Origin: an uncultured Neomegalonema sp. | GTDB taxonomy: Bacteria > Pseudomonadota > Alphaproteobacteria > Rhodobacterales > Rhodobacteraceae | Direction: 5' to 3' | Length of the DNA: 64,000 bases | NCBI GenBank assembly: GCA_937911325.1 | Contig: CALDSD010000053.1 | Coordinates: forward strand, 1 to 64,000 | Shown: piece after piece, positions 1 through 914 of the stretch | Numbering within the stretch: the stretch's first letter is position 1 | How the letters are laid out: every line of letters begins with the position of its first letter | Translations under genes and position numbers: made by a program | The notes under the pieces: model-generated | What the model was told of the DNA's origin: nothing | Database searches by the model: none | The model's input: the letters and a program-made list of their open reading frames with translations, nothing else

Positions 1-2
1 GC

Positions 3-914
3 GAGGTGGCCGGTGATCCTCTCATCGGGGTGGACGTTGTGGAGGCTGGGGAAGAGCCTGCGACGCCGGTGCGCGACCCTCTCAAAGCTGTTCAGATCGC
101 GGTGATCGGGCGTCCGAACGCCGGCAAATCGACATTGGTCAACCGGATCCTGGGGGAAGATCGCCTGCTGACCGGTCCCGAGGCCGGGATCACCCGAGAC
201 GCGATCGGATTTGAGATCGACTGGGGCGGCCAGCGCTGCAAGTTCGTCGACACCGCGTGATTTCGCAAGAAGGCCCGAGGCCATCAAAAGCTCGAGAAAC
301 TCTCTGTCGGCGACGCGCTGCGGGCGGTGAAGTTCGCCGAGGTGGTCATTCTGCTTTTGGATGTGCGGGCTCCGTTTGAGACCCAAGACTTGCGAATTGC
401 GGACCTCGCCGCGCGCGAGGGGCGGGCCGTCGTGATCGGCGTGAACAAATGGGATCTTGAAGACGACAAGCAGCAAAAACTGGCGCAGTTGCGAGAGTCC
501 GTGGAAAGGCTGCTCCCGCAATTGCGCGGCGTGCCGATGGTCACGCTGTCCGGCCTGACCGGAAAGGGGCTCGACCGGCTCCATGCGGCGGTTCTAAGGG
601 CGCATGACGCCTGGAACATCCGCATTCCAACCGCGCCGCTGAACCGATGGCTGCTCGAACAAAGCCAAAAGCACCCGCCACCGGCGCCGTCGGGCCGTCG
701 GATCCGCTTGCGTTACATGACCCAGGCGAAGACCCGCCCCCCCACATTCGTGGTGTTCGCCTCTCGGCCAAAGGACCTGCCTGAAAGCTATTCGAGGTTT
801 CTCGTCAACGGTCTGCGGGAAGAGTTTGGATTGGCCGGCACGCCGATCCGGCTCATCATGAAAGCGTCGGAGAACCCGTATGCGGAAAAAGCGGCGAAGC
901 GGAAGATACACTGA
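3..914 (+). pseudogene. der: Ribosome-assembly GTPase Der (EngA), 3' part, interrupted by an in-frame TGA
   Basis: This is the second G domain and C-terminal KH-like domain of Der, a double GTPase needed for 50S ribosome maturation. The first G domain lies beyond the left edge. Visible motifs are G1 [10 protein letters not shown]2 GITRD, G3 VDTA-stop, G4 NKWD and G5-like SGLTGKG, followed by the KH-like tail. The frame is broken only by TGA at 258-260. It falls exactly where the invariant glycine of DTAG is expected (GGA would read Gly), and the same frame continues with FRKKAR and [19 protein letters not shown]. That is a single nonsense change, not a frameshift. Der is normally essential, so a base-call error is as likely as a real lesion. 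The gene converges with the SDR gene downstream. Confidence 0.85.

Follow-up and report, generated by a model that had tools for sequence, protein, structure and literature searches.

An in-frame TGA in der at a contig edge of an uncultured Neomegalonema sp. is very probably a base-call error

The window analysed here, a stretch of 64,000 nucleotides from an uncultured Neomegalonema sp. (contig CALDSD010000053.1 of GCA_937911325.1), begins exactly where its contig begins: base 1 of the window is base 1 of contig C52 (C52:1) in a draft of 102 contigs that is 98.36% complete. Positions 3 to 914 of the forward strand hold the C-terminal part of der (engA), which encodes a tandem-G-domain GTPase of ribosome biogenesis (family TIGR03594). 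This part comprises the linker, the second G domain and the C-terminal end of the gene; it is cut by the contig start, its frame ends at 914, and it is interrupted at 258-260 by a TGA that is in frame with base 3. The frame before the stop (3-257) matches positions 173-231 of the TIGR03594 profile and the frame after it (261-911) positions 234-432, so that der reads continuously across the stop without a frameshift, as the first-pass annotation had held when it aligned the frame to Der on both sides. Read through the stop, this frame scores 308.6 against a family cut-off of 306.7. The G1 and G4 motifs of the second G domain are present in the translations, as GRPNAGKS and NKWD; an excerpt of an EngA study gives these motifs as GKPNVGKS-like and NKWD (PMC3323550).

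We aligned 110 Der loci, 30 from a search of 40 genomes plus the best 80 of 576 relatives (two of the loci, L038 and L049, carry the same numbers and probably come from one genome). The comparison relatives belong to other genera, and the top one among the best 80 of 576 reaches 76% identity across residues 1-217. All 110 loci have Gly in the column at 258, and here, as assembled, DTA is followed by TGA on the forward strand. Since the column is invariant and the same excerpt gives DTAG as the G3 motif of EngA's second G domain (PMC3323550), the stop falls on the G3 glycine of Der, as had been claimed at first pass. A match above the family cut-off, the best one having no internal stop, was found in 39 of 40 other genomes, the exception (G035) being a genome that is 77% complete. 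A separate irregularity was seen in the draft of one relative (85% complete), where der was matched as two adjacent pieces in different frames (G022:C67:525-1893, profile positions 2-374 and 375-432), an apparent frameshift.

A second contig, C95 (C95:2-640), carries the N-terminal half of der, which runs into the first bases of that contig and scores 206.8. The gene is split over the two contigs, whose halves jointly span profile positions 3-432. In the 98% complete draft, a genome search detected these two halves of one der and no second der; the remaining ten hits were weaker and partial and are read as other GTPases. When the DNA of window positions 1-330 was searched against its own genome, it matched C52 itself, the overlap with C95, a 52-base stretch on C40 at 79% identity, and ten stretches of 18-32 bases.

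The ends of the two contigs overlap. Positions 2-114 of the window, on the forward strand, pair with C95:1-113 in reverse, from contig end to contig end, as a dovetail in which 105 of 113 bases are identical. The eight mismatches (7.1%) crowd towards base 1 of C52, from whose end they lie 7, 17, 20, 31, 40, 58, 76 and 96 bases away, with a mean distance of 43 bases against 72 from the end of C95. Seven of the eight are nonsynonymous, altering seven amino acids, and seven of the eight are transversions. Bases 2-114 lie at a contig end and have mismatches with another assembled copy of the locus, as a stretch of contig-end sequencing error would. Between real strains, differences in a conserved gene should be mainly silent and mainly transitions. 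Strain variation as the source of the differences is thus disfavoured, both by their effect on codons and by their class, and the pattern is the one to be expected of a read tail whose quality declines. The overlap with C95 does not reach codon 258-260, for which the draft offers no second copy.

The stop sits within a patch of der, positions 228 to 290 of the forward strand, that appears degraded when compared with relatives. A scan covered every 20-codon window from 81 to 862, 241 in all, and compared each with the ten relatives closest to it in the remainder of the gene. Windows 228-287 and 231-290 rank first, with an identity drop of 0.325 (z 5.6 and 5.5), and none of 108 other rows is as extreme. 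They remain the most deviant when the stop column is left out (drop 0.303, z 4.6, again none of 108), and beyond base 300 the top window has a z of 1.8. In the segment 231-288, the identity drop of 0.408 is the largest of 106 rows (the others have a mean of 0.057 and a standard deviation of 0.075, the next being 0.354 and 0.279), and 4 of 20 residues, including the stop, are private, a count that 1 of 105 rows reaches or surpasses; this segment was picked after its residues had been seen, and the choice-free scan agrees with it. The other private residues are those of codons 243, 261 and 279, each encoding a residue that occurs in none of the 110 relatives. The first-pass annotation had proposed that a single G-to-T change accounts for the stop and that its reversal would restore DTAG. 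The placement of the stop on the G3 glycine stands, but one substitution is too simple an account, as the whole patch looks wrong.

The stretch 117-228 looks sound, with no private residue among 38. We therefore infer that the bad sequence falls into two separate parts, which may be the tails of two reads. Positions 291-911 are well conserved in the comparison with the aligned relatives. Rare residues alone are no proof of error, since those at 81 and 90 are absent from all 110 relatives yet identical in C95, and real ones therefore occur in this lineage; this caution takes little from the case for error.

We compared both ends of all 102 contigs over their outer 800 bases (the stretch of C29 was 39 bases short, so that 203 of the 204 are true ends). 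Seven inexact dovetails were found, with 88.7-99.0% identity over 62-148 bases: C95/C52, C6/C57, C18/C58, C19/C101, C54/C95 (at the other end of C95), C70/C31 and C78/C66. Their 38 mismatches are 31 transversions and 7 transitions. By codon they come to 34 nonsynonymous against 3 synonymous changes, a count in which every frame except that of der was guessed from codon usage; in C18, C19 and C78 the top two frames score almost equally, and a wrong frame would give a nonsynonymous excess anyway. Because guessed frames may inflate the nonsynonymous counts, the transversion count weighs more. In the six pairs other than der, transversions make up 7/7 mismatches for C6, 5/7 for C18, 4/5 for C19, 6/6 for C54, 2/4 for C70 and 0/1 for C78. 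Four of the six are thus mainly transversions, while C70/C31 (2 against 2) and C78/C66 (a single silent transition) do not follow. Mismatches crowd to one contig end in C52, C6, C19 and C54 but not in C18/C58 or C70/C31, and C78/C66 has only the one. The starts of C6, C19 and C54 (L145, L158 and L192) carry error-like, transversion-rich substitutions that grow denser towards the end, and the genes there may show false changes.

Several kinds of pair stand outside the seven-pair counts. Four share an edge in the same direction (C12/C51, C1/C85, C3/C91 and C53/C68, the last exact over 55 bases); others are exact dovetails, seven of 55 bases and one of 26, or rows marked 'other'. The exact dovetails of 55 bases suggest an assembler k-mer of 55. 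Also outside are three dovetails of 68-75% identity, which served as a control. Split by codon phase, their mismatches number 21/28/72, 37/28/81 and 34/23/47, a tally that includes gap columns, which can displace the phase. The excess at third positions that marks genuine gene divergence is clear in the first two and weak in the third, and true divergence in this draft therefore looks unlike the C52 overlap. These three pairs, C8 start with C80 start, C24 start with C73 end and C27 end with C59 end (L147, L218, L163, L304, L264 and L290), overlap end to end over about 410-460 bases; they are read as contig breaks in truly diverged homologous genes, possibly gene duplicates or sequence from a second organism in the bin.

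The probable artefact at the C52 edge is of a kind that we take to be the low-quality read tail at a contig break, as in draft short-read assemblies. The likeness lies in the mismatched end-to-end overlap and in transversion-rich, nonsynonymous differences that become denser towards the end, with a similar pattern at four of the six other inexact dovetails of this draft. C52 differs from the simplest form of such a tail by the clean stretch 117-228 between its bad stretches and by many T>A changes. T>A is the commonest class among the dovetail mismatches (13 of 38), and an excerpt of an Illumina MiSeq study, in which substitution errors increase towards the read end, does not stress it, naming A>C, C>A, G>T and T>C as commonest (PMC4381044); T>C, that study's class for T, makes up 2 of 16 here. 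For a Gly codon to appear as TGA, its first base (258) must undergo G>T; in the outward direction from the contig this change is C>A, which occurs three times among the 38 dovetail mismatches. The 7.1% mismatch of the C52 overlap compares with the 6.5% substitutions that part of another study gives for the low-quality B-tails of a HiSeq set (PMC3334598), a platform that may differ from the one behind this draft.

The TGA is nevertheless there in the assembled sequence, and the overlapping parts of C52 and C95 disagree, as those of two strains could, both of which would agree with a genuine nonsense mutation in der, in the strain or in a minority strain, that leaves Der split or inactive. We consider this very unlikely. 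Der (EngA) is reported, in the excerpt at hand, to be essential in N. gonorrhoeae, E. coli and B. subtilis (PMC3323550). The first listed start codon after the TGA is the GTG at 327, and a protein restarted there would lack G1-G3 of the second domain. The overlap differences, mostly amino acid changes made by transversion, are also unlike the variation between strains under selection that general knowledge leads one to expect. That a real nonsense codon in the sole der is tolerated, by read-through or by loss of the GTPase of the second G domain, seems more improbable still, and we found no support for a tolerated split protein, which the first-pass annotation had listed among its options.

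Another of those options was a second copy of the gene. C52 would then hold a decayed der, or one from another organism, and the working copy would begin on C95. The two contigs are indeed not identical where they overlap, and mixed sequence does exist in the draft, where other contig ends overlap at 68-75% in truly diverged genes. Against this, C52 and C95 overlap end to end, as expected for the flanks of one locus, the search returned no other der, and the C52 copy is well conserved over its remaining part (291-911), which leaves only a slim chance for a second copy. Recoding of the TGA, as selenocysteine, as tryptophan or by general read-through, has nothing in its favour apart from the frame being open before and after the codon, and we regard it as the least probable reading of all. 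Only one tRNA-Sec hit exceeds the cut-off, and it is tRNA-Ser(tga); the next seven are ordinary tRNAs (the best 8 of 11 hits were typed, and the three weakest lie below the cut-off), and the tRNA-Trp among these seven has the anticodon CCA. SelB gave no match over the cut-off in the 98% complete draft. With neither tRNA-Sec, among the best 8 of 11 hits, nor SelB found in that draft, the gene was not classed as UGA-recoded (selenoprotein). RF2, on the other hand, is present in the genome, and the residue needed at this codon is glycine. Among the 55 long non-overlapping open reading frames of the window, 54 have their stop inside it and 33 of these end in TGA. The doubt about recoding voiced at first pass is therefore well founded. 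When the window was scanned by codon usage for further interrupted frames, the der stop ranked 4th of 634 and did not stand out, which is evidence neither way.

We conclude that the TGA at 258-260 is very probably a sequencing or assembly error at the low-quality edge of C52, inside an ordinary der. The position at a contig edge, the mismatched overlap, the error-like substitutions, the degraded patch and the like pattern at four other ends all argue for a wrong base, the option of the first-pass annotation that we favour; taken together, these sequence comparisons make a strong case, short of proof. The first ~290 bases of C52 would hold two low-quality stretches at an assembly break inside der, which probably stem from one or a few reads whose tails, rich in errors, were used to extend a poorly covered contig end, and the true codon at 258-260 would be a glycine codon. 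The C52 copy departs from Der/EngA by the TGA at the G3 glycine and by the private residues around it, all confined to the contig edge; the two halves of the gene on C95 and C52 together cover positions 3-432 of the family profile. The missing DTAG glycine, judged a base-call error, is not counted against the Der membership of the real gene.

For this draft, the finding means that error-like substitutions are present in the outermost ~100-300 bases of several contigs. Apparent stops, private residues and signs of recoding near contig ends should therefore be compared with the overlapping contig before any interpretation. The organism most likely has one ordinary, intact der that the draft has split into an N-terminal half on C95 and a C-terminal half on C52, and the biology of Der is unchanged by the TGA.
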